In this document: in pieces, positions 35,316 to 51,696 of the stretch
Position numbering within the stretch: position 1 is the first letter of the stretch
How the letters are laid out: every line of letters starts with the position of its first letter
From: a virus
IMG/VR virus record: IMGVR_UViG_3300020442_002355
Location: 1-54,147 of that record
Length of the DNA stretch: 54,147 nucleotides
Direction: 5' to 3' (one strand)
Position numbers and translations under genes: made by a program
The notes under the pieces: generated by a model
The model's input: only the letters and a program-made list of their open reading frames with translations
Databases searched by the model: none
What the model was told of the DNA's origin: nothing

Positions 35316-35349
35316 TTACACTACTGAGACACTTTAGAGGCTTCAGTTA
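35316..35349 (-). repeat. 34-bp element, copy 1
   Basis: Divergent copy with GTGTCTCAG in place of GTGTCC(T/C)AG. It lies 7 nt after the stop of the 57-residue gene and before the FANHATWNVALW gene. Confidence 0.9.
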
Positions 35350-35356
35350 GCATTAC

Positions 35357-35530
35357 TCACCACGTATCAGGTGTATGCAAGTCCTCGACATATGCCTCGC
35401 AGTATTCACTACCCTCCAAACCGAAGAGTTTATCCCAGTTGATATTATGCGGGTCAAAGTCATTCATTGCCTCAATCTCTAAGGTAATGCGATACTTACT
35501 CTTCTGTGCCTGGTGATAGATAGCGGGCAT
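35357..35530 (-). CDS. Small conserved protein (57 aa)
   Basis: A 57-residue acidic frame: MPAIYHQAQKSKYRITLEIEA, then FDPHNINWDKLFGLEG and a C-terminal EDLHTPDTW. It has a ribosome site (AGAGG) 10 nt before the ATG and a good sigma70-type promoter just upstream (35560-35588), unlike most array genes. The pattern suggests a small alpha/beta protein. I know no function. It is the first gene of the unit that continues through element copy 1 into the FANHATWNVALW gene. Confidence 0.75.
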   Translation of the reverse strand: MPAIYHQAQKSKYRITLEIEAMNDFDPHNINWDKLFGLEGSEYCEAYVEDLHTPDTW

Positions 35531-35559
35531 TTGTGAGAACCTCTGAGTGATACTTTGTT

Positions 35560-35588
35560 ATTGTACTATGGACTGAGAGATATAGCAA
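35560..35588 (-). promoter_or_regulatory. Sigma70-type promoter
   Basis: Minus strand TTGCTA (35588-35583), 17-nt spacer, TACAAT (35565-35560), 29 nt before the ATG at 35530. Confidence 0.75.
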
Positions 35589-35838
35589 GCACCTCAAGTC
35601 CTATTTAGAAAGTGTCTGCCGGGTGCTTGACTTTTGGGGGAGTTCGTGTTAGACTGAAGGCCAGGATCACTATGCTGAGAAGGATTTAGAGAGTGTATTC
35701 AGAGGGTCTTCAGAGATACTTAGCAGCGTCTCTGGGGTGTACTTAAGGGCATATTTTCCACAGTTTCTAACACTATTGTGGAAAACATTGTGGAAAAGAT
35801 AAAACGTTCAAATACATTTAAAATAACATTTTTAATAT
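35589..35838. other. Non-coding region with DnaA-box cluster and AT-rich tract
   Basis: About 460 bp (35531-35995) lack a convincing gene. Three perfect TTTTCCACA nonamers occur within 44 bp: 35754-35762 (plus), 35777-35785 and 35789-35797 (minus). TTTTCCACA is the cyanobacterial DnaA-box consensus. A stretch of ~50 bp, almost all A/T, follows at once (35798-35845). This is the arrangement of a DnaA-dependent unwinding region. Nothing recognisable was seen in 35600-35750. Confidence 0.55.
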
Positions 35839-35868
35839 AAAAAAACCCTAATCTTGTATATATCAGGG
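35839..35868 (-). terminator. Rho-independent terminator at the end of the array
   Basis: Minus strand CCCTGAT and ATTAGGG arms (7 pairs, one G-U), 9-nt loop, then seven T. It ends transcription arriving from the small genes at 35996 and above. Confidence 0.85.
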
Positions 35869-35995
35869 CAGAAAAGGTGAGTTTTTGGATATTACAGAGG
35901 TCTTACATGTATTGGTCCATCACACACAACCCGGACCTCAAATGCCTATACTTCACTGTTACATAAGCAATCAAATCATAGGACAGTTACTGTTA

Positions 35996-36145
35996 TCAGA
36001 ACTCAGTAGGATTGCCCTCGAAATCAACAGCAACAGCGCCAGCGTTAGTCATACTTTCGTCGGCAACAATCACGTCCAGGATAGAAAGAATGTCTTCTCC
36101 ATTGTTAGCAGTGGAGAGCATACCAATTGCCAGTTCTTTGTTCAT
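35996..36145 (-). CDS. Small conserved cyanophage protein (49 aa)
   Basis: A 49-residue frame beginning MNKELAIGMLSTANNGEDIL, then SILDVIVADES and ending DFEGNPTEF. I recognise the MNKELAIGML...ILxILD pattern as a very common small gene of T4-like cyanophages. It predicts as one or two helices with an acidic tail. Function is unknown. About 127 nt further down is a terminator, so it is the last gene of its transcript. Confidence 0.8.
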   Translation of the reverse strand: MNKELAIGMLSTANNGEDILSILDVIVADESMTNAGAVAVDFEGNPTEF

Positions 36146-36222
36146 TAGAAAGTGTTAATAAGTGAATGGAGTTGAACGTTAGTGAAACGTCTAGTTAGTT
36201 GTTAATCTAGGTCTTACGTTAC

Positions 36223-36256
36223 TTATAGGTCTCCCTATAACTTACTGCCTAGTAAG
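36223..36256 (-). other. Two adjacent perfect hairpins after a stop codon
   Basis: 36223-36240: TTATAGG and CCTATAA arms with a 4-nt loop. 36241-36256: CTTACT and AGTAAG arms with a 4-nt loop. They follow the stop of the 64-residue gene with no T run. RNA processing or message-end protection is possible. Confidence 0.5.
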
Positions 36257-36258
36257 TG

Positions 36259-36453
36259 TTATTCTAAGAGATCAGGATAGTATTCTTTCACCTCTGTAAT
36301 CAGTTCATCTACGGTATAAGAATCATAACTATTATCTAATTGATCAGCAACTAATTGCATCAATGTTTTGAGGTCCATGTCATCAAGAATCCGATCAATT
36401 AGGTTTTGTTGAAGTTCATCACGATCGATGATGTTGTCTGTGGTAGTGTTCAT
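36259..36453 (-). CDS. Small acidic helical protein, paralogue of its neighbour (64 aa)
   Basis: A 64-residue acidic protein: MNTTTDNIIDRDELQQNLIDRIL, then LKTLMQLVADQL and VDELITEVKEYYPDLLE. Its ending matches that of the preceding gene (DDELVEDVKQYAPHLI), so the two look like an old tandem duplication. The start overlaps the preceding stop as ATGA. No function is known to me; such small acidic helical proteins are frequent among early phage genes. Confidence 0.8.
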   Translation of the reverse strand: MNTTTDNIIDRDELQQNLIDRILDDMDLKTLMQLVADQLDNSYDSYTVDELITEVKEYYPDLLE

Positions 36454-36632
36454 GATTCAGGAATTAGATGTGGGGCATACTGTTTAACGTCTTCTACAAG
36501 TTCATCATCATCAAGGTCATTCAATTCTCTGTTCTGTGTTACAATGAAGAAGTCCCTTAAGTCTTCTTCTGTCATCTGATTTAGATCCCATTCGATGTAC
36601 TCTTCTTGGATTTGTTCTCTTGTTTTGTTCAT
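36450..36632 (-). CDS. Small acidic helical protein (60 aa)
   Basis: A 60-residue acidic protein: MNKTREQIQEEYIEWDLNQM, then EEDLRDFFIVTQNRELND and DDELVEDVKQYAPHLIPES. The C-terminal DELxxxVKxYxPxL motif is shared with the downstream neighbour. It lies 9 nt after the 115-residue gene and overlaps the next by 4 nt, so all three are probably one message. Function is unknown. Confidence 0.8.
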   Translation of the reverse strand: MNKTREQIQEEYIEWDLNQMTEEDLRDFFIVTQNRELNDLDDDELVEDVKQYAPHLIPES

Positions 36633-36641
36633 TGTTTTGTA

Positions 36642-36989
36642 TCAGGCAAAAGTGTAACCATGAGTGAATGATTCGGTTTTGAATACTTTTTCATTACCAA
36701 TTTGACCGACAAACTTTCTTACAAACCATTGATAATTCTTTTGGAAAACTCCTTCTCCAGCAATGCAGAACTCATTACATAGTGCGTTCAATCGTGATTT
36801 GGTTGTTTTAGTTTGCCAACCACCATCATAGATTGTCATGTCAGTATCTGTCACAGTAGCAATCAGATTGCCGTGCAGATATACATTTGAATTGTTTGTA
36901 TCAGGATCAAATGTGACGCTTGTGTTATCCTTTGACCAGTTGCGATTGTTGTTAATTGCACGGATCATTTCAAATTCGATTTTTCTCAT
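36642..36989 (-). CDS. Conserved cyanophage hypothetical protein (115 aa)
   Basis: A 115-residue alpha/beta protein: MRKIEFEMIRAINNNRNWSK, then NVYLHGNLIATV, GWQTKTTKSRLNALCNEFC and FQKNYQWFVRKF. The TTKSRLNAL...F segment is familiar from small conserved proteins of cyanophages. It heads a message after element copy 2, with an A/C-rich leader without ribosome site. No catalytic residues are evident. Confidence 0.82.
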   Translation of the reverse strand: MRKIEFEMIRAINNNRNWSKDNTSVTFDPDTNNSNVYLHGNLIATVTDTDMTIYDGGWQTKTTKSRLNALCNEFCIAGEGVFQKNYQWFVRKFVGQIGNEKVFKTESFTHGYTFA

Positions 36990-37013
36990 GATGTTTGTGT
37001 GTTGAGTGTGTGG

Positions 37014-37047
37014 TTACAATACTAGGACACTTTAGAGGCTTCAGTTA
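37014..37047 (-). repeat. 34-bp element, copy 2
   Basis: Intact copy with TATTGT instead of TAGTGT near its 3' end. It begins 8 nt after the TGA of the 68-residue gene; the next ATG (36989) is 24 nt downstream. Confidence 0.95.
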
Positions 37048-37055
37048 GTATCACC

Positions 37056-37262
37056 TCATATCTCGGCAATTAATAGTTTCAGGCATCTGTCTGCTTCAGT
37101 GAGAACATCATCATCTAATTCATCCCATTCGACTTCAGCATAGGCACTAAATGCCGTTTCATATGTACCATCTGAAAGAAGAGGAGCATAATACAAAACC
37201 GCAGAATGATCAGGGTCTAATGTATAAGTACAACCGTTGATTGATGAAACAAGAAAAACCAT
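37056..37262 (-). CDS. Small hypothetical protein (68 aa)
   Basis: A 68-residue protein: MVFLVSSINGCTYTLDPDHS, then AYAEVEWDELDDDVL and RCLKLLIAEI. The mix of a beta-rich first half and acidic second half is common among cyanophage small genes. It stands alone between element copies 2 and 3, a one-gene cassette. Function is unknown. Confidence 0.75.
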   Translation of the reverse strand: MVFLVSSINGCTYTLDPDHSAVLYYAPLLSDGTYETAFSAYAEVEWDELDDDVLTEADRCLKLLIAEI

Positions 37263-37283
37263 AATGTGAGTTGATTGTGTGAG

Positions 37284-37317
37284 TTACACTACTAGGACAC
37301 TTTAGAGGCTTCAGTTA
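37284..37317 (-). repeat. 34-bp element, copy 3
   Basis: Consensus copy. The TAG stop of the 50-residue gene touches it; the preceding 8 nt (AGGTTTAG) are also shared with copy 4. ATG at 37262 is 21 nt downstream. Confidence 0.95.
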
Positions 37318-37470
37318 CTAAACCTCACGAATTGCATCGATAATAAACTCTTTTTCAGTAGAATGTATGTGATTGATGCAATCATCCATATCTACACATT
37401 CTTCGACCGTGATAAACTTGAATCGGTCGGGATTGTCAATACGAGAAAGAGTGACGTTGAAAGTTTTCAT
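37318..37470 (-). CDS. Small hypothetical protein (50 aa)
   Basis: A 50-residue frame: MKTFNVTLSRIDNPDRFKF, then ITVEECVDMDDCINHIHS and FIIDAIREV. It is a beta-alpha type small protein, and stands alone between element copies 3 and 4. The perfect fit between two elements, with the usual A/C-rich leader, supports it as a real gene. Function is unknown. Confidence 0.75.
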   Translation of the reverse strand: MKTFNVTLSRIDNPDRFKFITVEECVDMDDCINHIHSTEKEFIIDAIREV

Positions 37471-37491
37471 TTAGTGTGTGAATTGTGGGCG

Positions 37492-37525
37492 TTACACTAC
37501 TGGGACACTTTAGAGGCTTCAGTTA
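37492..37525 (-). repeat. 34-bp element, copy 4
   Basis: Copy with CCCAGTAG instead of CCTAGTAG. It begins 7 nt after the stop of the 107-residue gene; ATG at 37470 is 21 nt downstream. Confidence 0.95.
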
Positions 37526-37532
37526 CTAAACC

Positions 37533-37856
37533 TCAGGCATATGACATCTCAGTATCATAAACAACACGGATGTTTGTACCAATCACAGGATCAATCGGTC
37601 CCCACTTATAACATTTTTCGTCAGCAAAATATCGTGCTACCTTACTCATCAGACGATCATCAACTTCACCACTATCACCAAGAATTGTGGTCTCAACATA
37701 TGGATAACCATCAACCTCAATCATATCACGAATCCAACCATACATTTCAACCTTATTATCAAACAACTTACTAGTGCGTAAATCACCACCAGCAACCGCA
37801 AGATATGCTCCTGAAAACTCAGGATTCATTTTGGAGAATGTCATTGAAGAGTGCAT
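37533..37856 (-). CDS. Hypothetical protein (107 aa)
   Basis: A 107-residue protein: MHSSMTFSKMNPEFSGAYLA, then KLFDNKVEMYGWIRDMIEVDG and CYKWGPIDPVIGTNIRVVYD. An alternative start is the Met at residue 5. The pattern is alpha/beta with no membrane segment or catalytic motif I can name. It is a one-gene cassette between element copies 4 and 5. Confidence 0.78.
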   Translation of the reverse strand: MHSSMTFSKMNPEFSGAYLAVAGGDLRTSKLFDNKVEMYGWIRDMIEVDGYPYVETTILGDSGEVDDRLMSKVARYFADEKCYKWGPIDPVIGTNIRVVYDTEMSYA

Positions 37857-37876
37857 AATGTTTGAATGTTGTGTGA

Positions 37877-37910
37877 TTACACTACTAGGACACTTTAGAG
37901 GCTTCAGTTA
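37877..37910 (-). repeat. 34-bp element, copy 5
   Basis: Consensus copy. Its internal TGA (bases 5-7 of the element) is the stop codon of the upstream gene. ATG at 37856 is 20 nt downstream. Confidence 0.95.
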
Positions 37911-38657: not shown

Positions 38658-38680
38658 TTTAGTGTGTTTGAATTGTGTGC

Positions 38681-38714
38681 TTACACTACTGGGACACTTT
38701 AGAGGCTTCAGTTA
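38681..38714 (-). repeat. 34-bp element, copy 6
   Basis: CCCAGTAG variant. The upstream gene ends TGA-TAG immediately before it. ATG at 38657 is 23 nt downstream. Confidence 0.95.
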
Positions 38715-39105: not shown

Positions 39106-39126
39106 AATTGTGTTTTGATTGTGTGC

Positions 39127-39160
39127 TTACACTACTAGGACACTTTAGGGGCTTCAGTTA
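39127..39160 (-). repeat. 34-bp element, copy 7
   Basis: GCCCCTAAAG variant. Its internal TGA ends the 61-residue gene. ATG at 39105 is 21 nt downstream. Confidence 0.95.
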
Positions 39161-39339
39161 GACATACCGCCAATGGTCTCATCATAGATTTTCTCTACGA
39201 TTGCCCACTCAGAGTAGGTCAGTGCAGAAACTTGAGAGAGAATATAGTCAGTTGCCATATCCCAGTCAGCATTAGTTTCCTCGATGAATTGTGGGAAACC
39301 TGCAACAACAGAGGAAAAAGGAGTAAGAGAAGTGATCAT
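39154..39339 (-). CDS. Small hypothetical protein (61 aa)
   Basis: A 61-residue protein: MITSLTPFSSVVAGFPQFIEE, then WDMATDYILSQVSAL and SEWAIVEKIYDETIGGMSN. It is a one-gene cassette between element copies 7 and 8, ending in the TGA of copy 7. The pattern is mainly helical and mildly acidic. Function is unknown. Confidence 0.75.
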   Translation of the reverse strand: MITSLTPFSSVVAGFPQFIEETNADWDMATDYILSQVSALTYSEWAIVEKIYDETIGGMSN

Positions 39340-39359
39340 AGTGTGTTTTGATTGTGTGC

Positions 39360-39393
39360 TTACACTACTGGGACACTTTAGAGGCTTCAGTTA
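39360..39393 (-). repeat. 34-bp element, copy 8
   Basis: CCCAGTAG variant. Its first three bases (TAA) are the stop codon of the 68-residue gene. ATG at 39339 is 20 nt downstream. Confidence 0.95.
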
Positions 39394-40778: not shown

Positions 40779-40789
40779 AATGTAGTGTG

Positions 40790-40823
40790 TAGTAATACTA
40801 GGACAGTTTAGAGGCTTCAGTTA
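40790..40823 (-). repeat. 34-bp element, copy 9
   Basis: Variant with AAACTGTCC and TATTAC instead of TAGTGT. Its internal TGA ends the 134-residue methyltransferase fragment. ATG of helicase B (40778) is 12 nt downstream. Confidence 0.92.
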
Positions 40824-41221
40824 AAGAACCCTTCTAATCCAATAGGTTCTCCAAAAGAATAATCATAGGTAAGTGCATCATGACAGACAAAGTGAGGGTG
40901 ATCAACTGCAACACCTAGTTTCTTACACATCTCTGCATGATTATCCTCCATAAGTTCTACTGCATAGAGCATATTATCGTTGATATGTTGTAAAGAGTGA
41001 TATTTCAATAATTCTGTCTGCAGTGCTAGTAGGAAGTTCCCTGACCCTGCCGCCGGATCTAAAAATGTGCTCTTTGCATCTTGCAGCATCGATTGAGGCA
41101 GTTCAGACACCATCTCAGCACACAATTCCATAGGTGTGAATACCTCACCAGTCTGATCAATTCTTTCATCAGATCGTTCAATATCTGATCCTACTGTTGA
41201 ATTGTGTGTGTTCTTAGGCAT
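40817..41221 (-). CDS. N6-adenine methyltransferase fragment with SAM site (motifs X and I)
   Basis: A 134-residue protein containing the SAM-binding half of a gamma-type N6-adenine methyltransferase: motif X GEVFTP (25-30), motif I FLDPAAGSGNF (53-63), an acidic residue at the motif II position (YAVELME) and a motif III-like DALTYD (~114). The chain stops where the catalytic NPPY motif should follow, exactly at the TGA inside element copy 9. It cannot be a complete enzyme alone. The neighbour at 41777 has NPPY. It overlaps the nuclease gene by 8 nt. It may be a truncation, or one half of a two-part enzyme. Confidence 0.85.
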   Translation of the reverse strand: MPKNTHNSTVGSDIERSDERIDQTGEVFTPMELCAEMVSELPQSMLQDAKSTFLDPAAGSGNFLLALQTELLKYHSLQHINDNMLYAVELMEDNHAEMCKKLGVAVDHPHFVCHDALTYDYSFGEPIGLEGFFN

Positions 41222-41780
41222 ACTGCTCCTTTACAATGTTGCGTAAATCATTCCAGAAAATGACATTGTTATCGACACGTCTTGCCATCTTCTCTCTATC
41301 GATGCAATGGACATTTGCCATGGCATGTTTAGGATGAACGCCCTTACATGATGTCACTATTATAACATTCTTTCCATTATATTGCAGTCCTTCGTTCATA
41401 GTTGCATCGGCAGCAATGTTAGAGATATTGTCTGCATTGGTCAATTGAGTGTTAGGATTTGCCTTGAATTTGACCTGAATTACATTAGGTTTGCCGTCAA
41501 TTGTAGAGAGTCCACGTCCATCAATACCGCGATCATAATCGAAATTTGGTTCATAGTTTGCAGTGTATGTGAGTGTATGATCGCCATTGAAGAACTTGAG
41601 GAAGTATTCAACGAACCACTCAAATCCATCTCCCATGAACTTCAATGGGTCATAGAAGTCTGGATCTTGCTTCTTACCAAGGGCAACCAACTTTTTCAGG
41701 AATGAATCTAACTTATTGTCAGAGATTAGAGAGTCAATCTCTTCACAATCAAAACCAAATGTGTGTTGCAGTTTCATCAC
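41214..41780 (-). CDS. PD-(D/E)xK-type restriction endonuclease-like protein
   Basis: A 188-residue nuclease candidate. The core has an acidic helix residue (DGFEWFVEYFL, 51-61), then GIDGRG (86-91) and IQVKFK (101-106), the D-(x)n-QxK signature of Mrr-like and type I/ISP restriction nucleases that cut DNA with metal ions. A second strand (NVIIVTSCKG) fits the fold. There is no DNA-recognition domain of its own, so it probably acts with partners. Its ATG overlaps the stop of the NPPY methyltransferase, and its end overlaps the start of the SAM-site protein. That puts it at the centre of a three-gene coupled cassette. Confidence 0.78.
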   Translation of the reverse strand: MMKLQHTFGFDCEEIDSLISDNKLDSFLKKLVALGKKQDPDFYDPLKFMGDGFEWFVEYFLKFFNGDHTLTYTANYEPNFDYDRGIDGRGLSTIDGKPNVIQVKFKANPNTQLTNADNISNIAADATMNEGLQYNGKNVIIVTSCKGVHPKHAMANVHCIDREKMARRVDNNVIFWNDLRNIVKEQYA

Positions 41781-42907
41781 TTGATGGCAGAGAGGGGGAT
41801 GTAGTTGAGAGGTTTGTCGGAAAGATAACGCTGAGAGAAGAGAATGGATTCTTTGATTTTGTTGAACTTATCGCCGTTCAAGAAATTGACCATCTCCTCT
41901 GAAGTATCGAGAACATAGTAGATGTGTCTACCACAACCTTCGTTCTCAACCCTTGCCATTGATTTGCCCTGATCACGAAACACAGTCTTAGGCACATCGT
42001 GGTGTTCATGCATCTTAGAAGAGTAAAGGTAAGTAATACCTTCGCTGTTCAGTTTTTCAATGATTGAATACTGATGCTGGTCAGTTTTGACCTTACTCAT
42101 GTGCTTCAACCGTGATTCATGAGAATAACTCTGATAAACCTTCAGTTTCTCTTCATCAGACTCAAATGCTTCTGTCCAGAAATCGATGCTGGAATTAGGA
42201 ATGAAAGGAAACTGAGTTACATCATACTCACCTTTGACACCATCAGAAAACTCAATGATTGTTTTCTTGTAAGGTGCAACTTTTTCGATGGTGTAGATAT
42301 CGAAAGGGGTGGATGCTTTGAATACTTTTTTGCCTTCCTTTGCATCATTGATCTTCAATGAGACCAACTGATAATCCTTGTAGATATAAGAAAGTTTGTC
42401 ATTAGGTTGACGCCAACGGGGAGGATTGATGAATGAAAGAAAACCACCATCATTCAACAATTCAAGGGATTGTGCTACAAAGGTGTCCCAGATTGTGTTG
42501 CCAGAGGTCTTAGTACCTGCCTGATATGGAGGGTTGGCAATAACAACATCGAATTTCATGGGGCACCTAGACAGTTTGTTGAAAGGGGGAATATAATAAT
42601 TTATACCAATCTTAGAGCAAATACCTTTGACATTATTATAGTATTTCTCCTCCATTTTTGTCAATCGAACATTAGCACGTTCGATGAGAGTCAGATTGGT
42701 GAATCCATGCTCTTGAAGAGTCAAGCACAGAGTCAAGAAAGTATCAACAACTGCAATAGGTGCATCCTTAGCAACACCAAAAGAAACGAGTTGTTGAACC
42801 ATCTCCTGTGCAATCTCTTCAGAGATAGGACGACGATCGTCAGCAGGTTTGATACCCTGAGAATAAAACTTTCTCAGTGCTTCACGTTTTTGGAATAGAG
42901 TTGCCAT
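41777..42907 (-). CDS. N6-adenine methyltransferase-like protein with NPPY (Eco57I type)
   Basis: A 376-residue protein with the catalytic motif IV FDVVIANPPY (119-128), followed by FLSFINPPRWR and a ~200-residue C-terminal part that could be a target-recognition domain (RHIYYVLDTSEEMVNFLNG...QRYLSDKPLNYIPL). The SAM-binding loop expected before NPPY is degenerate: IAVVDTFLTL (51-60) replaces D-P-x-x-G-x-G. So it may need a partner for SAM binding, for instance the 134-residue protein that has a perfect motif I but no NPPY. It heads the coupled cassette after element copy 10. Confidence 0.85.
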   Translation of the reverse strand: MATLFQKREALRKFYSQGIKPADDRRPISEEIAQEMVQQLVSFGVAKDAPIAVVDTFLTLCLTLQEHGFTNLTLIERANVRLTKMEEKYYNNVKGICSKIGINYYIPPFNKLSRCPMKFDVVIANPPYQAGTKTSGNTIWDTFVAQSLELLNDGGFLSFINPPRWRQPNDKLSYIYKDYQLVSLKINDAKEGKKVFKASTPFDIYTIEKVAPYKKTIIEFSDGVKGEYDVTQFPFIPNSSIDFWTEAFESDEEKLKVYQSYSHESRLKHMSKVKTDQHQYSIIEKLNSEGITYLYSSKMHEHHDVPKTVFRDQGKSMARVENEGCGRHIYYVLDTSEEMVNFLNGDKFNKIKESILFSQRYLSDKPLNYIPLSAIK

Positions 42908-42918
42908 TGGTTGTGTGC

Positions 42919-42952
42919 TTGTATTACTAGGACAGTTTAGAGGCTTCAGTTA
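42919..42952 (-). repeat. 34-bp element, copy 10
   Basis: Variant with AAACTGTCC and TAATAC. It follows TGA-TAG of the helicase A gene; the methyltransferase ATG (42907) is 11 nt downstream. Confidence 0.93.
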
Positions 42953-42955
42953 CTA

Positions 42956-44362
42956 TCAATCAAACATATCCATGGGTTCATCAACACTCATCAGTTCGTC
43001 AATCTTGAGAGTGTGTTGCCATTGAATATCATAATCATTGATACGCTGGCGAATATCTTCTTCAAGATCTTCAACCACTTCATCCTCTTTGCCGCGTCCA
43101 GATACCTCAGTCAGAATACCATCAACAGGAACACCCATGCTGAGAAGTTGGTGGACAATATCACTGATGGCAGTGAAAGCATCATCAGTATCATCAGCGT
43201 GTTGAATGATAGTTACAATACCATACTTTTTGCCAGGGGAGGAACGAATGACCCGACCCATTGCCTGAACTGCTTTGATATTAGAGGAGATATTGCGAAG
43301 GAAAATAGTACCAGTGAATGCCTTCACATCGATACCCTCACCCAGCATATCATAGTGCAGGACAATCATCTTCTGAGTCAGATCCTGACCCAGTTCATCA
43401 AGTTTAGTGATGAACTTACCCTTATCAGAACCGCTGCAAATCTTGTCGTTGTTGATGTAACCACCATTGACAGAATCAACAGTCAGAACATCATAACCCT
43501 TTGCATTTGCCCACTTCATGATGGAATTGCGGATGTCCTGAATGTTCTTGGTTCCGCGACATGCAACCAGAACTTTGTGTGCTCCGGTGTCATAATGCTT
43601 GACTTCATAATAGTTGATGGTCTCCATGATTGCATCAACATCAGTAGAAACCTCATCAAGATTCTTTGCAGAAGCATTAGAAACTTGTAGGTGCAGGTAA
43701 GGGTGAACAATGGACCCCGAATCAATCAGGTCCTTGAACTTTACATTGCAGATGTTCTGACCATATACTTCAGCATTGTCAAATCCTGCACCAGTTGTAG
43801 ACTCACTACGACGGGGAGTTGCAGTAAAGAAATAGCAGTTATTAGCGTTAGAACTAATATATTTGACACTAGGGAAGCAGTTACTATCAGCAGCATTGTG
43901 TGCTTCATCGAAGTAAACTGCATCAATCTTCAGATTAGCAGATACAACCCGCTCAAGACTCTTGTAGGTAGTGAACAGAATCAGAGGTTGATCTGCTTTC
44001 TGTGCAATTCTGTAAGTATCTTGAATATCATCAATGACAGTAGAAGGAGACTGTGGTTGAACTTTAGTTCTGAACTTCAGATTGCGACGATCACGCTGAA
44101 ATGTCTCAGATTCAGAAGAAACTTGACGATAGACAAAATCTACATCAGACAGGTGATAATCGAACTCAGTGAACAACTGCTTAGCAAGAAGCAGTTGAGG
44201 AGCAACAACAACAATGACACTGCCAGGTGTTAGAAACCGGCGAGAATCAGTGATCATTGTGTAAGTTTTACCACCGCCAGTTCCACAGGTGATATAACCT
44301 TTCTTGTTGATTTGCATCGCGGAAAGCATATCTTCCTGATGCTGACGGAGAGTAAAAGTCAT
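42956..44362 (-). CDS. SF2 DEAH-type helicase/translocase A
   Basis: A 468-residue helicase: Walker A GTGGGKT (27-33), DEAH box YFDEAHNA (150-157), motif III FTATPRRS (~179-186) and motif VI QAMGRVIRS (~370). The acidic C-terminal ~70 residues (KEDEVVEDLEEDIRQRI, MSVDEPMDMFD) are absent from helicase B and could contact partners. It aligns by eye with helicase B along both lobes, for example LFTTYKSLERVV with IFTTYNSLGRVM. It stands alone between element copies 10 and 11. Known relatives are restriction-enzyme translocases and UvsW-like repair helicases. Confidence 0.88.
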   Translation of the reverse strand: MTFTLRQHQEDMLSAMQINKKGYITCGTGGGKTYTMITDSRRFLTPGSVIVVVAPQLLLAKQLFTEFDYHLSDVDFVYRQVSSESETFQRDRRNLKFRTKVQPQSPSTVIDDIQDTYRIAQKADQPLILFTTYKSLERVVSANLKIDAVYFDEAHNAADSNCFPSVKYISSNANNCYFFTATPRRSESTTGAGFDNAEVYGQNICNVKFKDLIDSGSIVHPYLHLQVSNASAKNLDEVSTDVDAIMETINYYEVKHYDTGAHKVLVACRGTKNIQDIRNSIMKWANAKGYDVLTVDSVNGGYINNDKICSGSDKGKFITKLDELGQDLTQKMIVLHYDMLGEGIDVKAFTGTIFLRNISSNIKAVQAMGRVIRSSPGKKYGIVTIIQHADDTDDAFTAISDIVHQLLSMGVPVDGILTEVSGRGKEDEVVEDLEEDIRQRINDYDIQWQHTLKIDELMSVDEPMDMFD

Positions 44363-44383
44363 GATGTTGTGTTGGTTGTGTGC

Positions 44384-44417
44384 TTACAATACTAGGACAC
44401 TTTAGAGGCTTCAGTTA
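44384..44417 (-). repeat. 34-bp element, copy 11
   Basis: Copy with TATTGT. Its internal TGA ends the 156-residue membrane protein. Helicase A ATG is 21 nt downstream. Confidence 0.95.
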
Positions 44418-44881
44418 GTTTCATCAATGGTTTGAACCTCTTCGATACCATTCTGAGAGTTGTATTCTGCTTTGATAGCAGTACCGCTAGCAAAACCAAC
44501 AATACTAGATGTTGAAACAATAGCAGCAAGGATTAGAGAGGCATTCTTACCACTCACACGGTTCTTTGCCAGTTTGTAAGAACCAAACCCGGCACCACCT
44601 AGCAGCACCCAAGGAAGCAACCACCAGGCAATCCCAATAGCACAAACAAGACCGATAAGTGCCCAACTTCCCTCAACATCAGAGGCACTGAATGAAGAAC
44701 CAGATGAAGAAGAGGAAGAAGAATTGTCATCGTGAATCTCAAAGATACGATTTACATCACTCTCGTCTACACCCTCACGTCTTGCAATTTGTTTCTTAGC
44801 AGCAAAAACATTTGCAGCATTTACCTCTACTTGGTATGGATGATCTCCAGATACCCAGACTTGTGCTTCAAAACGTGCCAT
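44411..44881 (-). CDS. Membrane protein with Ser-rich linker (156 aa)
   Basis: A 156-residue protein in three parts: a soluble N-terminal domain (MARFEAQVWVSGDHPYQVEV, NVFAAKKQIARREG, residues 1-50), a Ser-rich linker (~54-66), and two or three hydrophobic segments (WALIGLVCAIGIAWWLLPWVLL and ASLILAAIVSTSSIVGFASG). The N-terminal domain resembles small proteins that adapt variable substrates, but I cannot name it. Phage membrane proteins of this type may act in exclusion or lysis control. Its TGA is in element copy 11. Confidence 0.82.
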   Translation of the reverse strand: MARFEAQVWVSGDHPYQVEVNAANVFAAKKQIARREGVDESDVNRIFEIHDDNSSSSSSSGSSFSASDVEGSWALIGLVCAIGIAWWLLPWVLLGGAGFGSYKLAKNRVSGKNASLILAAIVSTSSIVGFASGTAIKAEYNSQNGIEEVQTIDETN

Positions 44882-44902
44882 GATGTTGTGTTGGTTGCGT
44901 GC

Positions 44903-44936
44903 TTACAATACTAGGACAGTTTAGGGGCTTCAGTTA
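44903..44936 (-). repeat. 34-bp element, copy 12
   Basis: Variant GCCCCTAAACTGTCC with TATTGT. Its first TAA is the stop of the 53-residue gene. ATG at 44881 is 21 nt downstream. Confidence 0.94.
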
Positions 44937-45095
44937 CAGTATCTCACCTCGCATCTGTGCAAGTTTAGCAACACTATAGCACTCTAGGATAGTATATGCA
45001 ACCTCACCAGATACCATGTGCTCATCACAAAAATACTCCATTGTGTCCTCAATCAGTTCGATGAGTTGTTGATGCTTTGCTTCAGTGATAGTCAT
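44934..45095 (-). CDS. Small acidic helical protein (53 aa)
   Basis: A 53-residue frame: MTITEAKHQQLIELIEDTME, then YFCDEHMVSGEVAYTILECY and VAKLAQMRGEIL. It is entirely helical by pattern. The ATG overlaps the stop of the ligase-like gene (ATGA), so it is probably translated with it. The stop is the TAA of element copy 12. Function is unknown. Confidence 0.75.
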   Translation of the reverse strand: MTITEAKHQQLIELIEDTMEYFCDEHMVSGEVAYTILECYSVAKLAQMRGEIL

Positions 45096-45967
45096 GCGTT
45101 TGTAGCGAAGTTTGCGAAAGAAAAGGACTCACGATTGACGAGTTTGAACATACCAAACTCATTGGTGCGGACATAACCCTCACCGATGCATTGACGGTTG
45201 CCTAGGAATGCCTTAGGACCGTTATTGCGACAGAGTTTAAGCATGTCCTCCTTGATAGATTTGATGAGGAACCAGTAACTAATCAGACGAGAGTTGTTGA
45301 ACTCCTCAGGGTCAATCTCACGTCCCTCACGAATACACTTGTTCAGTGCAATCTTAAGTTGTGCTGCCTCAGATACAGAGACAAAATCTACCAGTTGTGC
45401 CATCTGACGGGCAAAACCAATAATGTCACTGAAATCTTTGTCAACTGACCAGCAGTCAGGTTGAACAAACTTGACGAACTCATTGTCAGCGAATACCTCC
45501 ATATCTACCATGTCCATGATAGTGTAGGCATCCTTAAGTTCACCATCAGTCGCATAAAGAGTGTGAGGAGCGACAACAATGATTTGCTCAATAGGGTCAG
45601 GGAAGACATAAGTCACGGTATTAGGTGTGAAGGTATCTTCAAACATACCCCAACCTAGGAAGTCACCCTGAACAATGCCATCATATTGAGGCAGGAAAGT
45701 GAGACAATCGTGAAGGATTCGTGCAACCTCACCCTCATAGAGATCGTCAATCTCTTGATGAGAATGTGCAATCTTGATCTTTTTCTTGTTGAATACTGAT
45801 TTAGTGCCAACAAATTTGGTGCCAGTAGCAGGGTCAGTGCCCCACACAATAGCAGGTTTGCCATCAATCTTGACTGACATATCACTGTCAGACATAAACC
45901 AATCAAGGACAGATAAGTCACCCGTAAGGATGCTGTCCTCTGGATGTTCAAGGTGAGTGTTCTTCAT
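45092..45967 (-). CDS. Ligase-like nucleotidyltransferase (DUF6267-like)
   Basis: A 291-residue protein. The segment HLEHPEDSILTGD at the start, the nucleotidyltransferase motif KIDGKPAIVWG (33-43) and TKFVGTKSVFNKKK just after it match the pattern of phage DUF6267 proteins, which are related to ATP-dependent nucleic-acid ligases. In ligases the Lys of KxDG takes the adenylate, so K33 would be the active site. Later motifs are GIVQGDFLG (~96-104) and the end FKLVNRESFSFANF. Substrate (RNA or DNA) is unknown. The start codon directly touches the end of element copy 13, so there is no leader. Confidence 0.8.
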   Translation of the reverse strand: MKNTHLEHPEDSILTGDLSVLDWFMSDSDMSVKIDGKPAIVWGTDPATGTKFVGTKSVFNKKKIKIAHSHQEIDDLYEGEVARILHDCLTFLPQYDGIVQGDFLGWGMFEDTFTPNTVTYVFPDPIEQIIVVAPHTLYATDGELKDAYTIMDMVDMEVFADNEFVKFVQPDCWSVDKDFSDIIGFARQMAQLVDFVSVSEAAQLKIALNKCIREGREIDPEEFNNSRLISYWFLIKSIKEDMLKLCRNNGPKAFLGNRQCIGEGYVRTNEFGMFKLVNRESFSFANFATNA

Positions 45968-45996
45968 ACTACTAGGACAGTTTAGGGGCTTCAGTT
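45967..45996 (-). repeat. 34-bp element, copy 13 (3'-shortened)
   Basis: Variant GAACTGAAG...CCCCTAAACTGTCC. The element ends in the ATG of the ligase-like gene (GTAGTATG), so the final GTGTAAG part is missing. Its internal TGA ends the 62-residue gene. Confidence 0.9.
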
Positions 45997-46179
45997 CTTG
46001 ATAAGCTCAAGAGTTTCAACAATACTAGTCATACAAGAACGTGAATAACCAGTAGCATAAGGATAACTTTTCTCAATTCCATCAGAACTACTATCCACAC
46101 CATGGCAGACAGCAATACTTTCTTTGAGGTTCTGAATCATAAGTTCCAGAACGTATTCGTCAATTTGATAGGTTTTCAT
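45991..46179 (-). CDS. Small hypothetical protein (62 aa)
   Basis: A 62-residue protein: MKTYQIDEYVLELMIQNLKE, then CHGVDSSSDGIEKSYPYATGYSRSCMTSIVETLELIKN. It forms a one-gene cassette between element copies 13 and 14, and its stop is the TGA of copy 13. The arrangement YPYATGYSRSCM between two helices is distinctive, but I do not recognise a family. Confidence 0.76.
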   Translation of the reverse strand: MKTYQIDEYVLELMIQNLKESIAVCHGVDSSSDGIEKSYPYATGYSRSCMTSIVETLELIKN

Positions 46180-46194
46180 AGTTTAGTTGAGTGC

Positions 46195-46228
46195 TTACAC
46201 TACTAGGACACTTTAGGGGCTTCAGTTA
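46195..46228 (-). repeat. 34-bp element, copy 14
   Basis: GCCCCTAAAG variant. The 206-residue gene ends TAA directly before it. ATG at 46179 is 15 nt downstream. Confidence 0.95.
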
Positions 46229-46849
46229 TTACTTGTTAGTTGCCCAAGTTCTACTAAAGTTCTTTAATTTTACATCTTTTGGATTCTTACCTTGCTTTTC
46301 TGCTTCTGCATCTCTAACTCTTCTTTCAAGTTCTCTTTCACCTTGACGCATCAACTTTTGTCTTTCGCTTCTTGTGTATGATTTTTTAGGTTTACCTGCC
46401 TTTGGATCATATTTTGGAGAAACAGTCTTAGTTGTCTTCTTACTCAACAACTGTGATGCTGTAGGTGTTTTCTTTGCTGATGTAGGTGCTGGTTTACCAC
46501 TCTTTCTAGCAGCGATTCGTGCCTGTGCTGCTTTCTTTCTTTCTGCTTTTGCTGCTGCTGCCTGTGCAGATGCTGCACTTCCACGCTCACGGGTAGGTTG
46601 TTGCTCTCTTGTAGATGCTTGACGTTGAGAACCAATATCCTTACGTTTCTTATAGGGAGAAACGGGAGCAGTTTTACCACCACCAATTGCCTTGGTTCTT
46701 CTCATCTCCGGCGCAGACTTCTTACGGTCACGACCTACACGACCATCTGCATCTGTCTTCCTAATCTGACTACGACCCTGAACTTCCTTGTCGTATGCCT
46801 CAAATTGTATAGAATATGCTTCCGAAAGGAATTGTTGGAGAGTCTTCAT
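46229..46849 (-). CDS. Basic low-complexity virion-type protein (206 aa)
   Basis: A 206-residue, very basic protein. The N terminus MKTLQQFLSEAYSIQF is a frequent start in cyanophage proteins that associate with the prohead or virion. The middle is Ala/Lys/Arg-rich (AQAAAAKAERKKAAQARIAARKSG) with further repeats of KPAPTSAKK type. The end is KNPKDVKLKNFSRTWATNK. It has a late motif (46876-46882), unlike its neighbours in the array, so it is probably made late. DNA binding inside the head is a reasonable guess, no more. Confidence 0.78.
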   Translation of the reverse strand: MKTLQQFLSEAYSIQFEAYDKEVQGRSQIRKTDADGRVGRDRKKSAPEMRRTKAIGGGKTAPVSPYKKRKDIGSQRQASTREQQPTRERGSAASAQAAAAKAERKKAAQARIAARKSGKPAPTSAKKTPTASQLLSKKTTKTVSPKYDPKAGKPKKSYTRSERQKLMRQGERELERRVRDAEAEKQGKNPKDVKLKNFSRTWATNK

Positions 46850-47273: not shown

Positions 47274-47288
47274 AATTTTGATTGGTGC

Positions 47289-47321
47289 TTACACTAATGG
47301 GACACTTTAGAGGCTTCAGTT
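47289..47321 (-). repeat. 34-bp element, copy 15
   Basis: Slightly diverged: CAACTGAAG at the start and CCCATTAGTGTAAG at the end. It follows the TAA of the 48-residue gene by 1 nt. ATG at 47273 is 15 nt downstream. Confidence 0.9.
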
Positions 47322-47322
47322 G

Positions 47323-48968: not shown

Positions 48969-49001
48969 CTTACACTCCTAGGACAGTTTAGAGGCTTCAG
49001 T
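48969..49001 (-). repeat. 34-bp element, copy 16
   Basis: Variant starting CACTGAAG, with AAACTGTCC and TAGGAGTGT. Its internal TGA ends the His-rich gene. ATG at 48958 is 11 nt downstream. Confidence 0.9.
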
Positions 49002-49245
49002 GAATATCAATGTGCAGGAAGGGCACTAAGTAATGAGAATGCCCGTGTCCTTTGTGATGATAATGCTTCTTAGGTCCGTGCCATAAACCGTGATGCCTTC
49101 CACTGTGCTTATGGCAGTGATGAATTGCTTTCTTAGGATGAATGTGGCAATGACTATGTTTGTGATGTGAATGATGGTGGTTACTATGTGCCATAGCAGG
49201 AGCACCAACCAATCCAAATAACATCAATGCAGGAAAGAGTTTCAT
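48997..49245 (-). CDS. Secreted His-rich, probably metal-binding protein (82 aa)
   Basis: An 82-residue protein with a signal peptide (MKLFPALMLFGLVGAPAMA, cut expected after AMA) and a mature part of about 63 residues that contains some 25 His, in runs such as HSNHHHSHHKHSHCHIH and HYHHKGHGHSH, plus two Cys. It should be exported to the periplasm and bind Zn, Ni, Cu or Fe. The frame is open up to 49275, but that would put the start within the T run of a terminator, so ATG 49245 is preferred. Its TGA lies in element copy 16. Confidence 0.8.
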   Translation of the reverse strand: MKLFPALMLFGLVGAPAMAHSNHHHSHHKHSHCHIHPKKAIHHCHKHSGRHHGLWHGPKKHYHHKGHGHSHYLVPFLHIDIH

Positions 49246-49273: not shown

Positions 49274-49301
49274 AAAAAAAGGGATGCTAGTCAAGCACCC
49301 C
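49274..49301 (-). terminator. Rho-independent terminator
   Basis: Minus strand GGGGTGCT and AGCATCCC arms (8 pairs, one G-U), 5-nt loop, then seven T. It ends the message of the 51-residue gene, upstream of the His-rich gene. Confidence 0.9.
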
Positions 49302-49313
49302 TGTGTCAGTATT

Positions 49314-49469
49314 TCAATTGTCTTCACTTTTCAGTTTTCTGACCAGATGCTCTGCCCATTCTTCCATCTTATCTGGATGAATAGCACGAATACCTGAATC
49401 TTTCACTGCATTCTCAATAGAAGTCATCTCCTTATTACAAAGTTTTTTAGATTTGGAAGGAAGAGTCAT
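49314..49469 (-). CDS. Small hypothetical protein (51 aa)
   Basis: A 51-residue frame: MTLPSKSKKLCNKEMTSIEN, then AVKDSGIRAIHPDKMEEWAEHL and VRKLKSEDN. It is mostly helical and mixed in charge. It has its own candidate promoter (49493-49498) and a terminator right after the stop, so it looks like a single-gene transcript. Function is unknown. Confidence 0.75.
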   Translation of the reverse strand: MTLPSKSKKLCNKEMTSIENAVKDSGIRAIHPDKMEEWAEHLVRKLKSEDN

Positions 49470-49481
49470 ATGCAGATTTGA

Positions 49482-49498
49482 AATACTATAGTATTATA
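49482..49498 (-). promoter_or_regulatory. Extended -10 promoter with 14-bp palindrome
   Basis: Minus strand TGATATAAT (TGn-TATAAT; -10 at 49498-49493) lies 24 nt before the ATG at 49469. The perfect palindrome AATACTATAGTATT (49482-49495) overlaps its 3' end, in the place of an operator. The -35 is weak. A GTAAATA late-like motif (49502-49508) is also near. Confidence 0.5.
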
Positions 49499-49537
49499 TC
49501 AGTATTTACAAACAAACTTCCGTATCTTAATTATCAC

Positions 49538-49714
49538 TTAAGATTCTTGTTTCATTTGCTTACGAACTTTCTTTAACTCTTTAAGTTCACTCTTAATCAT
49601 CTGATATGCGTCTTCCGATGATAGTTTCTTTGCCATTTCCATAGCAGAGATAACTTCTACCCTTGTACCAAAGTGTTGCAATGCTCTTTCAAATGAATCT
49701 AAGTAGCTATACAT
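49538..49714 (-). CDS. Small conserved helical protein (58 aa)
   Basis: A 58-residue protein: MYSYLDSFERALQHFGTRVE, then VISAMEMAKKLSSEDAYQMIKSEL and a basic end KKVRKQMKQES. The frame is open upstream, but ATG 49714 follows the preceding TGA by 1 nt (TGATATG) and begins the conserved part. The SFExALxHFGTRV...GMEMAxxLxxxxAYxMIK pattern is a common small gene in cyanophages. Function is unknown. Confidence 0.8.
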   Translation of the reverse strand: MYSYLDSFERALQHFGTRVEVISAMEMAKKLSSEDAYQMIKSELKELKKVRKQMKQES

Positions 49715-49715
49715 A

Positions 49716-50156
49716 TCAGTTTCGGTTTCGTTTGTAGGGTCCAAGCGGCAACCTCCCAGCAATCCAATCGTCTCCTGGACATTCTACACTACGTTTGTTA
49801 GATTGTCCATTATTCCACCAGGTTGTTCCCTTTTGATTGTTATGAACTCCTGGAAAAGGTTTCCCTTTATATAGTTTGCTTAGTTTCTGTTTAACCTCTT
49901 CTGTGTGTGTCTTCCCCAAAAAGTTGTGAGGATTATTCTTAAGATATTCTTTTGCTCTCTTTGACATTAACTTGCGCGTTTCTGCTGACGCTTCTTTATC
50001 GGCATAATATTCGCGCAGAGTATTAGAAATAGCGTCTCTCATTTTTGGAGACATCCAATCAGCAGTATCAAAAATATATTCTATATTCTCTTCTTCAGGT
50101 AAGAATAAGGGCGCGTCTATTCCGAACGCCCTGTTAAGGGTTGTGTAATCTTTCAT
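49716..50156 (-). CDS. NUMOD3-type protein related to homing endonucleases (146 aa)
   Basis: A 146-residue protein. A DNA-binding NUMOD3-like helix motif is visible (GKTHTEEVKQKLSKLYKGK, ~80-98), followed by GTTWWNNGQSNKRSVECPGDDW (~108-130), a segment often found next to it in phage endonuclease relatives. No GIY-YIG or HNH catalytic motif is present, so it is either a relic or a DNA-binding regulator. A strong sigma70-type promoter and a perfect late promoter TATAAATA stand in front of it, within a 12-bp inverted repeat whose near arm ends 1 nt before the ATG. Confidence 0.75.
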   Translation of the reverse strand: MKDYTTLNRAFGIDAPLFLPEEENIEYIFDTADWMSPKMRDAISNTLREYYADKEASAETRKLMSKRAKEYLKNNPHNFLGKTHTEEVKQKLSKLYKGKPFPGVHNNQKGTTWWNNGQSNKRSVECPGDDWIAGRLPLGPYKRNRN

Positions 50157-50181
50157 AGTAGTCTTGGCGTATGACTATACT

Positions 50182-50189
50182 TATTTATA
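50182..50189 (-). promoter_or_regulatory. Consensus late promoter TATAAATA
   Basis: An eight-of-eight match to the T4 late promoter on the minus strand (TATAAATAAG), 25 nt before the ATG at 50156. It lies inside the inverted repeat. Confidence 0.82.
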
Positions 50190-50192
50190 CAA

Positions 50193-50221
50193 ATTATAAC
50201 ATAAAAGTGGGACTTACGCAA
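50193..50221 (-). promoter_or_regulatory. Sigma70-type promoter
   Basis: Minus strand TTGCGT (50221-50216), 17-nt spacer, TATAAT (50198-50193). It is within the inverted repeat and just upstream of the late promoter. Confidence 0.75.
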
Positions 50222-50257
50222 CTAAATCCGCCAAGACTACCTGTTGCCGCCCACTAA

Positions 50258-50503
50258 TTACTTCTTCTCTTCGTTCATCTCATCGTCCAGAGTATCTAGA
50301 AGGTCTTTCTTCTTGTTTCTGGAGTTCTCAATCGCGTCTCTGACCTTCTCTAGGGTTCTCCTAGATACGTTAGTCTCAATCTCTTTTGTCTGCTGTTTGT
50401 TGGTCTTTTCTTTCTCCAACTTCGCTTCCTGTGCCTTACGATTTGCCAACATATCTTTAGCACGTTGTTCTAAATCTTCAGATAGTTTAGAGAAGGATTT
50501 CAT
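50258..50503 (-). CDS. Small charged coiled-coil protein (81 aa)
   Basis: An 81-residue, highly charged helical protein: MKSFSKLSEDLEQRAKDML, then ANRKAQEAKLEKEKTNKQQ and LEKVRDAIENSRNKKKDLLD. It predicts as one long helix with coiled-coil spacing. The start MKSFSKLSEDL resembles N termini of cyanophage prohead and virion-associated proteins. A late motif precedes it (50524-50530), and AAGAGGC serves as ribosome site. Assembly or scaffold role is possible, not shown. Confidence 0.75.
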   Translation of the reverse strand: MKSFSKLSEDLEQRAKDMLANRKAQEAKLEKEKTNKQQTKEIETNVSRRTLEKVRDAIENSRNKKKDLLDTLDDEMNEEKK

Positions 50504-50522
50504 AAGAGGCAGGATTCTCTAC

Positions 50523-50729
50523 TTATTTATCTTTAGACTCCTTATTTGTTATATTATACACTACTGGTTGAATTTTATCAATCTTTGCCTGTAATCTATT
50601 CTCTAATTCATATAATGCATTAGTCGTTTCTATGTTTTCCATTTCTAATTCATCAACACGACTTTCTAATTCTGAAATATAACGGTACACGGAGACATTA
50701 ACGAATCTCCTTATAAGTTTTCCTAACAT
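50523..50729 (-). CDS. Small coiled-coil protein (68 aa)
   Basis: A 68-residue protein. The N terminus MLGKLIRRFVNVSVYRYISE is amphipathic and may touch membranes; the rest (LESRVDELEMENIETTNALYELENRLQAKI) has clear heptads of a coiled coil. It begins 2 nt after the TAA of the 53-residue gene. The TAA at its end is part of the next late motif. Function is unknown. Confidence 0.75.
   Translation of the reverse strand: MLGKLIRRFVNVSVYRYISELESRVDELEMENIETTNALYELENRLQAKIDKIQPVVYNITNKESKDK
50524..50530 (-). promoter_or_regulatory. Late promoter motif ATAAATA
   Basis: Minus strand AAGATAAATAAGTAG, 20 nt before the ATG at 50503. The stop of the 68-residue gene (TAA) lies within it. Confidence 0.68.
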
Positions 50730-50731
50730 TA

Positions 50732-50893
50732 TTAAATTTTTGGTAATTTACAGTCTCTAGGTGATGCCTCCTTAATTTCATGCAATAGTTCCATCTTTAC
50801 AGAACGCGGAAGGTCTTTTACCTTCTCCAAATTAAGAATCAATCTTTGTGCATCAGAGCAAGATATTATCGTTGATAATAGTATTTCTATCAT
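50732..50893 (-). CDS. Small conserved protein with hydrophobic N terminus (53 aa)
   Basis: A 53-residue frame: MIEILLSTIISCSDAQRLIL, then NLEKVKDLPRSVKMELLHEIKE and SPRDCKLPKI. The N terminus with a Cys (LSTIISCSDAQ) may be a signal or lipoprotein-like segment. The ILLxTxxSCSDAQ...VEMxxExKExxPxDC pattern is a recurrent cyanophage small gene. Ribosome site GCAGGAG precedes the ATG. TTAAATA (50915-50921) might be a late motif. Function is unknown. Confidence 0.8.
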   Translation of the reverse strand: MIEILLSTIISCSDAQRLILNLEKVKDLPRSVKMELLHEIKEASPRDCKLPKI

Positions 50894-50913
50894 AATGCAC
50901 TCCTGCAGTTACA

Positions 50914-51117
50914 CTATTTAATCACAGACCAGTGTTTATCTTCATGTTCATTAATCCAAAAAAAGTAACGTCCATTGATAGATGCTAGAAACACTTTTCC
51001 ATCTTCTCTCTTCTCAACACGACAAGAATGAAGACTATGCATTTCATTAGCAAAGCGATTCTTTGCTTTGGATGTCTTGGGTTGTACGCAAAGAAACTCT
51101 GATTTCATAGTAGTCAT
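50914..51117 (-). CDS. Small conserved protein (67 aa)
   Basis: A 67-residue basic protein: MTTMKSEFLCVQPKTSKAKN, then RFANEMHSLHSCRVEKREDGKV and ASINGRYFFWINEHEDKHW. The LHSCRVExRxDGKVFLxSIxxRYxFWxxE pattern is a well-conserved cyanophage small protein. Met 4 is a possible alternative start. It predicts as helix plus beta-hairpin. Function is unknown. Confidence 0.83.
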   Translation of the reverse strand: MTTMKSEFLCVQPKTSKAKNRFANEMHSLHSCRVEKREDGKVFLASINGRYFFWINEHEDKHWSVIK

Positions 51118-51146
51118 AATTTGTCTTGAACCCCAACAAAGGTATT

Positions 51147-51563
51147 CTACAGGGATTTTAGATACTTGTCAAGTAATACACTTTCCATTGCTTCTGCTTC
51201 AATCTCCCATGGTTGATCCGTATAGTCCATCAGAGAGCAGTCTGTGCCCTTCCAGCAACGTTTACTACGGGCAAAGGATAAATCCCCCCTAACGTGTTGT
51301 AATAGGTGCCACAGTTCGTGTAGAAGGGTAACTGTGTAGGTATCAGCATCTAGGTTGGATTGCATCTCAATCTCAAAATGTCTAGGACGATATTGAGAAC
51401 CAACAGGACCAATCCATGCCAGAGCACAATCACGTCTCATACCACGATGGTTTATATCCACAGTGATTTTGTGTCTTGGTAGATACTCACCAATGAACCA
51501 GTTGACAATACTTTGAGCACGGCGTATACTGTAACCGTACCCATAGGTTTCAAGATACAACAT
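51147..51563 (-). CDS. SprT-like zinc metalloprotease (138 aa)
   Basis: A 138-residue protein with the zinc-protease core LHELWHLLQH (HExxH, about residues 82-86) and a downstream acidic segment PWEIEAEAME that can supply the third ligand, as in SprT/minigluzincin-type peptidases. The N-terminal part (YGYSIRRAQSIVNWFIGEYLP) is helical. The substrate is unknown. The frame is open to a GTG at 51587; ATG 51563 is preferred since it lies in the usual overlap with the small upstream gene (14 nt), but GGGGGG before the GTG makes the longer form possible. Confidence 0.82.
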   Translation of the reverse strand: MLYLETYGYGYSIRRAQSIVNWFIGEYLPRHKITVDINHRGMRRDCALAWIGPVGSQYRPRHFEIEMQSNLDADTYTVTLLHELWHLLQHVRGDLSFARSKRCWKGTDCSLMDYTDQPWEIEAEAMESVLLDKYLKSL

Positions 51564-51651
51564 AACGAATAATAAGTTCAGATACACGAACCCCCCAATT
51601 CATAAGAATGAAGAAGGAGGAGACAAAGATGAGTTTTTCTAAACCAGTCAT
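51550..51651 (-). CDS. Tiny membrane protein (33 aa)
   Basis: A 33-residue frame: MTGLEKLIFVSSFFILMNWG, then VRVSELIIRYVVS. Residues 7-20 are hydrophobic and form one short membrane span. It begins 15 nt after element copy 17, as array genes do, and overlaps the metalloprotease start by 14 nt. It resembles tiny membrane proteins in related cyanophages as I recall them. Function is unknown. Confidence 0.65.
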   Translation of the reverse strand: MTGLEKLIFVSSFFILMNWGVRVSELIIRYVVS

Positions 51652-51665
51652 CCTAGTAGTCTATT

Positions 51666-51696
51666 CACTACTAGGACACTTTAGAGGCTTCAGTTA
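51666..51696 (-). repeat. 34-bp element, copy 17
   Basis: Match ends after TAGTAGTG; the GTGTAAG tail is changed. The first TAA is the stop codon of the tail-fibre gene. ATG at 51651 is 15 nt downstream. Confidence 0.92.

Follow-up and report, generated by a model that had tools for sequence, protein, structure and literature searches.

Marine cyanophages possess many small unknown genes. How these are built up and turned over, and what drives middle or early expression in such phages, are open questions, and one locus of a T4-like Synechococcus phage bears on both. The window, by which we mean the whole stretch of 54,147 nucleotides (nt) analysed here (IMG/VR record IMGVR_UViG_3300020442_002355, positions 1 to 54,147), contains 17 copies of an intergenic repeat of 34-37 nt, hereafter called the element. 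These copies form an array in a hypervariable gene cluster between tail-fibre and baseplate genes, with genes for baseplate wedge, neck and tail-fibre proteins on its left and a tail-fibre gene on its right. The nearest cultured relatives of the window are the Synechococcus phages Bellamy and S-SM2, and the equivalent locus is also present in SynMITS9220M01. Judging from the sequence comparisons described below, we lean towards reading the element as a promoter private to the phage that is also used for recombination.

When we searched the window with the pattern GGACACTTTAGAGGCTTCAG, allowing up to 3 mismatches, exactly 17 matches were obtained between 35327 and 51693, all on the minus strand, and there were none in 100 shuffled sequences used as a control (0 expected). 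This search confirmed an earlier note on this DNA, which had listed 17 copies in one orientation between genes. The full copies span 35315-51696 (Table 1), and every copy lies between two genes, following the stop of the one and preceding the start of the other. In 9/17 copies, which is the number previously given, the element contains the upstream stop codon, as TAA at -2 or TGA at +2 when the C of CTGAAG is taken as position 1; in the remaining 8/17 this codon begins 5-13 nt ahead of the element. The downstream ATG is located at position 34-56 counted from this C in 15 window copies, and that of the copy at 45975 is found inside the element at position 28, while no open reading frame (ORF) lies close to the first copy of the array (51674). 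The 5' box ACTGAAGCC is present in 17/17 copies, and the window does not contain it elsewhere. A minor correction to the earlier note is that conservation of the 3' half TAGTAGTGTAAG is approximate, with an exact match in only 2/17 window copies.

Table 1. Copies of the element and associated genes and cassettes in the window.
Feature	Position	Strand	Evidence
Element copy 1, core variant GTGTCT	35315..35349	-	pattern matches
Element copy 2	37013..37047	-	pattern matches
Element copy 3	37283..37317	-	pattern matches
Element copy 4	37491..37525	-	pattern matches
Element copy 5	37876..37910	-	pattern matches
Element copy 6	38680..38714	-	pattern matches
Element copy 7	39126..39160	-	pattern matches
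Element copy 8	39359..39393	-	pattern matches
Element copy 9	40789..40823	-	pattern matches
Element copy 10	42918..42952	-	pattern matches
Element copy 11	44383..44417	-	pattern matches
Element copy 12	44902..44936	-	pattern matches
Element copy 13; ATG of DUF6267 gene inside core, position 28	45963..45997	-	pattern matches
Element copy 14	46194..46228	-	pattern matches
Element copy 15	47288..47322	-	pattern matches
Element copy 16	48969..49003	-	pattern matches
Element copy 17, which opens the array behind the tail-fibre gene; palindrome formed by core and downstream flank	51662..51696	-	
233-bp cassette with 61-amino-acid ORF (39154-39339)	39157..39390	-	gene strings, DNA alignments
Block of three element-bounded cassettes, 4.1 kb	40827..44898	-	gene strings, DNA alignments
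Cassette of 156-amino-acid ORF, family 74	44411..44881	-	gene strings, DNA alignments
DUF6267 gene, family 03	45092..45967	-	459 cyanophage records; element before it in 12/15 arrays
Family 06 gene, basic protein, N-terminus MKTxxQFxxEA	46229..46849	-	phage-collection search

The element consists of two parts: the box at its 5' end, about 9-11 nt long (AACTGAAGCC in the window), and the core at its 3' end (CTAAAGTGTCCYTATAGTRTRA). We compared the two parts in 79 arrays with at least 3 copies each, comprising 428 instances. Within an array the identity was 95% for the box and 86% for the core, and between arrays it was 45% for the box and 81-87% for the core; when array membership was permuted, box identity never exceeded 49%. 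We distinguished at least 28 box types, and their spacing from the core is constant. The 12 occurrences of GGGGGGTCG in the complete S-SM2 genome all belong to elements and are on one strand. A few arrays (L066, L101, L123 and L135) contain a single element with a foreign box, and the DNA surrounding that of L101 is most similar to phages carrying the same box. Since the box is near-invariant within a phage and free between phages, with the reverse for the core, a phage-specific trans-acting factor would be expected to read the box. Concerted evolution alone was rejected as the source of box uniformity, and neutral homogenisation by recombination is disfavoured because the box varies less than the core inside one phage. 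The 34-bp element of the earlier note is real, but the note had overlooked that its two parts follow different patterns among phages and that phages with another 5' half have the 3' half in common with the window.

This division is evident in the relatives. S-SM2 and SynMITS9220M01 carry the 3' half of the window element, CTAAAG[TC]GTCCCTATAGTRTRA, in 10-12 copies at the equivalent locus, and have AAGGGGGGTCG and GTTACTCACC, respectively, as the 5' half in place of AACTGAAGCC. An 18-nt piece of the core matches 112 viral DNA stretches and the full window element matches 38. A 20-nt core piece gave no exact match among 84,980 prokaryote genomes, and a host origin of the core was rejected on this basis. 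Scans of whole records showed the elements on a single strand and in a single local cluster, which lies between tail-fibre and baseplate genes. The Prochlorococcus phage P-TIM68 (L192) has 13 copies in one cluster on one strand (record positions 47.1-56.1 kb) with the known box type GTTAGTTACC, the spacing kept and a more AT-rich core TATTAATG (CTAAATTGAyATATTAATG), and S-B05 and S-B43 have the variant TTACTCACCTCGAAATGTCCACTATAGTGTAAC in two clusters. We found no account of this element in our searches of the literature.

The element was absent from the whole-record scan of Bellamy (L047), in which gaps of 68-85 nt with TATATTA/TATTATTA-like sites stand before several of the gene families that are preceded by the element elsewhere (median gap 68 vs 3, p=0.02). 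Bellamy contains intergenic modules of another family, with A[GC]TGTCCAC or AGTGGCACA by the stop codon, a hairpin and then TATATTA/TATTATTA, and these modules precede genes that carry the element in other phages. The helicase and Eco57I-like methyltransferase genes of the window (41777-44362, minus strand) are 74-78% identical in DNA to those of Bellamy and are in equal order, and Bellamy has no elements there.

The element precedes the same gene families whatever its box, namely families 23 (8/8), 40 (4/4), 24 (6/7), and 02 and 03 (12/15), and genes inside the units are never preceded by it (0/15 for family 04, 0/13 for family 06 and 0/12 for family 08). The phage-specific box and the same families behind the element indicate that it is more than a recombination repeat, and that its most likely nature is that of an expression signal with an additional role in recombination. 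The interpretation given in the earlier note, exchange of cassettes at the copies, is supported in part. Within our phage collection, family 06 was found only in S-SM2, SynMITS9220M01, P-TIM68, S-B05, RN05-S, RB11-B and two single-cell viruses, and every one of these carriers shows the element or a variant of it. Family 06 was considered as the reader of the box and rejected, as its nearest neighbours have the same box in 36% of cases, a value similar to that of other genes, and the protein looks disordered and virion-targeted; since its sequence does not follow the box, it is a lineage marker rather than a reader. The window protein starts with MKTLQQFLSEA and is probably disordered, and the N-terminus of this family resembles the capsid-targeting sequence of T4 internal proteins.

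We then compared gene strings with the elements marked, together with DNA alignments, between the window and its relatives. The block of three cassettes, which encodes a 156-amino-acid ORF, a 468-amino-acid SF2 helicase and the products of Eco57I/N6-type methyltransferase genes, is absent at this site in six close relatives (L021, L033, L035, L036, L042 and L043) with one element at the empty site, and in L021 the flanks overlap by about 40 bp, that is, one element, at 7638-7678. The 233-bp cassette is absent in L021, L033, L035 and L036, and its slot is occupied by another gene of 63 amino acids in L020 and by a longer stretch including cassette 74 in L018. The family 74 cassette is located in a different slot in L018, there too flanked by two elements. 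When we aligned L169 with L170, whose DNA is 96-98% identical around the site, two units were in swapped order, one of them as a 77%-identical allele, and a 321-bp unit was gained or lost, with all breakpoints within elements.

We suggest that each element would be an expression signal private to the phage, probably a promoter, at the front of a transcription unit of 1 to 4 genes. The -10-like TAKTRT is located at element positions 24-29 with the box about 17 nt upstream, and the box, read by a putative phage-specific factor, would thus be placed where a -35 or a T4 MotA box would be, whereas the shared host machinery would read the core. With near-identical copies of 34-40 bp lying in tandem in one orientation, phage homologous recombination between them could add, delete, swap or move units, and each moved unit would bring along its own signal. 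An alternative -10 candidate is YAAAGT at positions 11-16, often TAAAGC in S-SM2, with which transcription would start near positions 20-25. A consensus promoter scan did not list the elements as full promoters save for one weak overlap, and a TTGACA-like hexamer is absent. A promoter of a T7-type polymerase was rejected, as the resemblance is limited to CTATAG and is not kept in the window copies.

The main rival of the promoter is a signal at the RNA level, which we consider unlikely on balance. Here the array would be transcribed from upstream promoters, and the element would be a processing or translation-control site in a polycistronic mRNA, which an RNA-binding protein, a nuclease or a small RNA specific to the phage would recognise. 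Several observations weigh against the promoter, and most of them favor this rival. In all phages together, an ATG is found inside the core (positions 28-30) in 151/374 distinct instances (about 40%), and 143/151 of these (95%) open an in-frame ORF of at least 40 amino acids; for families 03 and 07, several phages have no plausible start other than the in-core ATG. In those genes the core would have to be part of the mRNA, and since a start after TAKTRT would cut off this ATG, the transcription start would lie further upstream, or read-through or action at the RNA level would be involved. About 16/512 instances contain a palindrome across the core with compensating arms (GTCCC/GGGAC, GTCTC/GAGAC or GTTCC/GGAAC), compared with 1-2 in a shuffled control, which suggests that the core is transcribed; they include window positions 51652-51675 (minus strand, CCTAGTAG..CTACTAGG) and instances in L009, L011, L027, L049, L080, L110 and L135. 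It also fits an RNA-level signal that the element abuts the upstream stop codon and that classical sigma-70-like sites are also present in the array. In addition, no array protein tracks the box type, and no reader of the box was found. On the other side, RNAalifold gave 0 kcal/mol over 24 box types, by which a conserved RNA hairpin was rejected and the palindromes were left as a minority subclass. The start codon follows at anything from 0 to >100 nt, which is unlike a ribosome-binding signal, and Rfam contained no match to the element; a tRNA search likewise returned nothing of use. Neither the S-SM2 genome nor the window contained the box in reverse complement, and an antisense guide RNA was rejected for this reason.

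The two functions combined in the promoter reading might also be separated. If the element served cassette exchange only, homologous or site-specific, with no expression role, the exact empty sites and the substituted or relocated cassettes at elements would be explained, but we regard this as very improbable: the element is kept before the same gene families across different boxes, and a site shared between phages would not need a phage-specific box. Moreover, none of the array genes scanned was recognised as coding for an integrase or transposase, and we saw no attC-like fold, in agreement with what had been noted before on integrase and fold. Conversely, the elements might be ordinary promoters with no recombination role, and the turnover would then reflect whole transcription units as the unit of selection, which we also judge quite improbable. 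When we calculated how often gene adjacency was kept, it was 26% across elements vs 43% at other junctions in the same-box group and 18% vs 31% in all arrays, and inside the array zone alone it was 26% vs 34-36%. The non-element junctions of the zone are nearly as labile, which counts against a special role of the elements in recombination, and indels occur away from elements too, as in gene 72 of L170; since the gap shrinks inside the array zone, the zone is labile as a whole and the elements are not the sole break sites. However, adjacency was lower across elements in all comparisons, breakpoints repeatedly fell inside the 40-bp element in close pairs, and some arrays contain one foreign box, in one case beside imported DNA. 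The exchangeable cassettes of the earlier note are therefore borne out by the empty sites, substitution and relocation at elements in relatives, but not as a property of these junctions alone.

A promoter that doubles as a recombination site could be part of a wider scheme, which we put forward tentatively from the pattern of boxes and cores. Marine T4-like phages may possess a private promoter code with a shared core and dozens of exchangeable boxes, each with its own trans-acting factor, in which cassettes would move via the shared core and would be expressed only after gaining the box of the recipient. In more than 100 marine viral contigs and several cultured phages, transcription or cassette units can be recognised by the element as a sequence tag. 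The element predicts a rapidly changing regulator, for whose isolation the box could serve as bait. It also lets one test whether regulatory repeats steer gene exchange between viruses, and the box types could mark exchange between phage lineages.

Among known systems, T4 middle promoters combine a MotA box near -30 with a sigma-70 -10. The element would resemble them in that a box for a predicted phage factor at about -30 is joined to a -10-like site, presumably host-read, with a fixed spacing in all box types, although the in-core ATG is at odds with a start downstream of it; the element differs in the conserved AAAGTGTCC in the spacer, in the box that changes completely between close phages and in its restriction to one cluster. 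MotA is not mentioned in the text of Sullivan et al. 2010, and no search for motA/asiA was made. Integron attC arrays also consist of gene cassettes separated by repeats in the same orientation, but the element is tied to the downstream gene and has no conserved fold, and the Pfam/PHROG matches obtained for the scanned array genes include no integrase. In halovirus HF2, all tested intergenic repeats were promoters with the start site inside the repeat, according to the part of the report consulted (PMC8707807), and a motif precedes most left-arm ORFs of HGTV-1 in the corresponding part of another (PMC3950731). These are likewise intergenic repeats of similar length in a lytic myovirus, but variation of the box from virus to virus is not described in those parts. 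They are archaeal promoters with a TATA box and B recognition element, and HF2 has far fewer copies.

Promoter early stem-loops (PeSLs) of T4-type phages were reportedly described by Arbiol et al. in 2010 and Comeau et al. in 2014. In the sections consulted, they are small repeated intergenic regulatory cassettes in plastic regions that are held to mediate gene shuffling by recombination (PMC4503421, PMC3950731), and cyanophage S-PM2 is reported there without a PeSL density of this kind (PMC4503421). The array has one module that is PeSL-like and unlike the 17 elements, at 49265-49302 on the minus strand, where a terminator-like hairpin AGGGGTGCTTGACTAGCATCCCT with a T-run overlaps a sigma-70-like promoter TTGACT-18-TATACT. 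Another sigma-70-like site, TTGACA-17-TAGACT with TG ahead of the -10, lies at 35016-35044 on the same strand just downstream of the last element. As with PeSLs, the repeated copies of the element bound shuffled modules in close relatives, and the element appears to work in a similar way. However, it has no stem-loop by RNAalifold over the 24 box types, no terminator at the copies by terminator scan and no recognisable sigma-70 -35, and is instead divided into a private box and a shared core; since the defining stem-loop is absent, we do not file it as a PeSL. The statement of the earlier note that no named system has this combination was too strong, as both the T4 PeSLs and the halovirus repeats join promoter repeats with proven or proposed shuffling. 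PeSLs and the halovirus intergenic promoter repeats are the nearest kinds to the element, and its new feature is the phage-specific box joined to a shared core.

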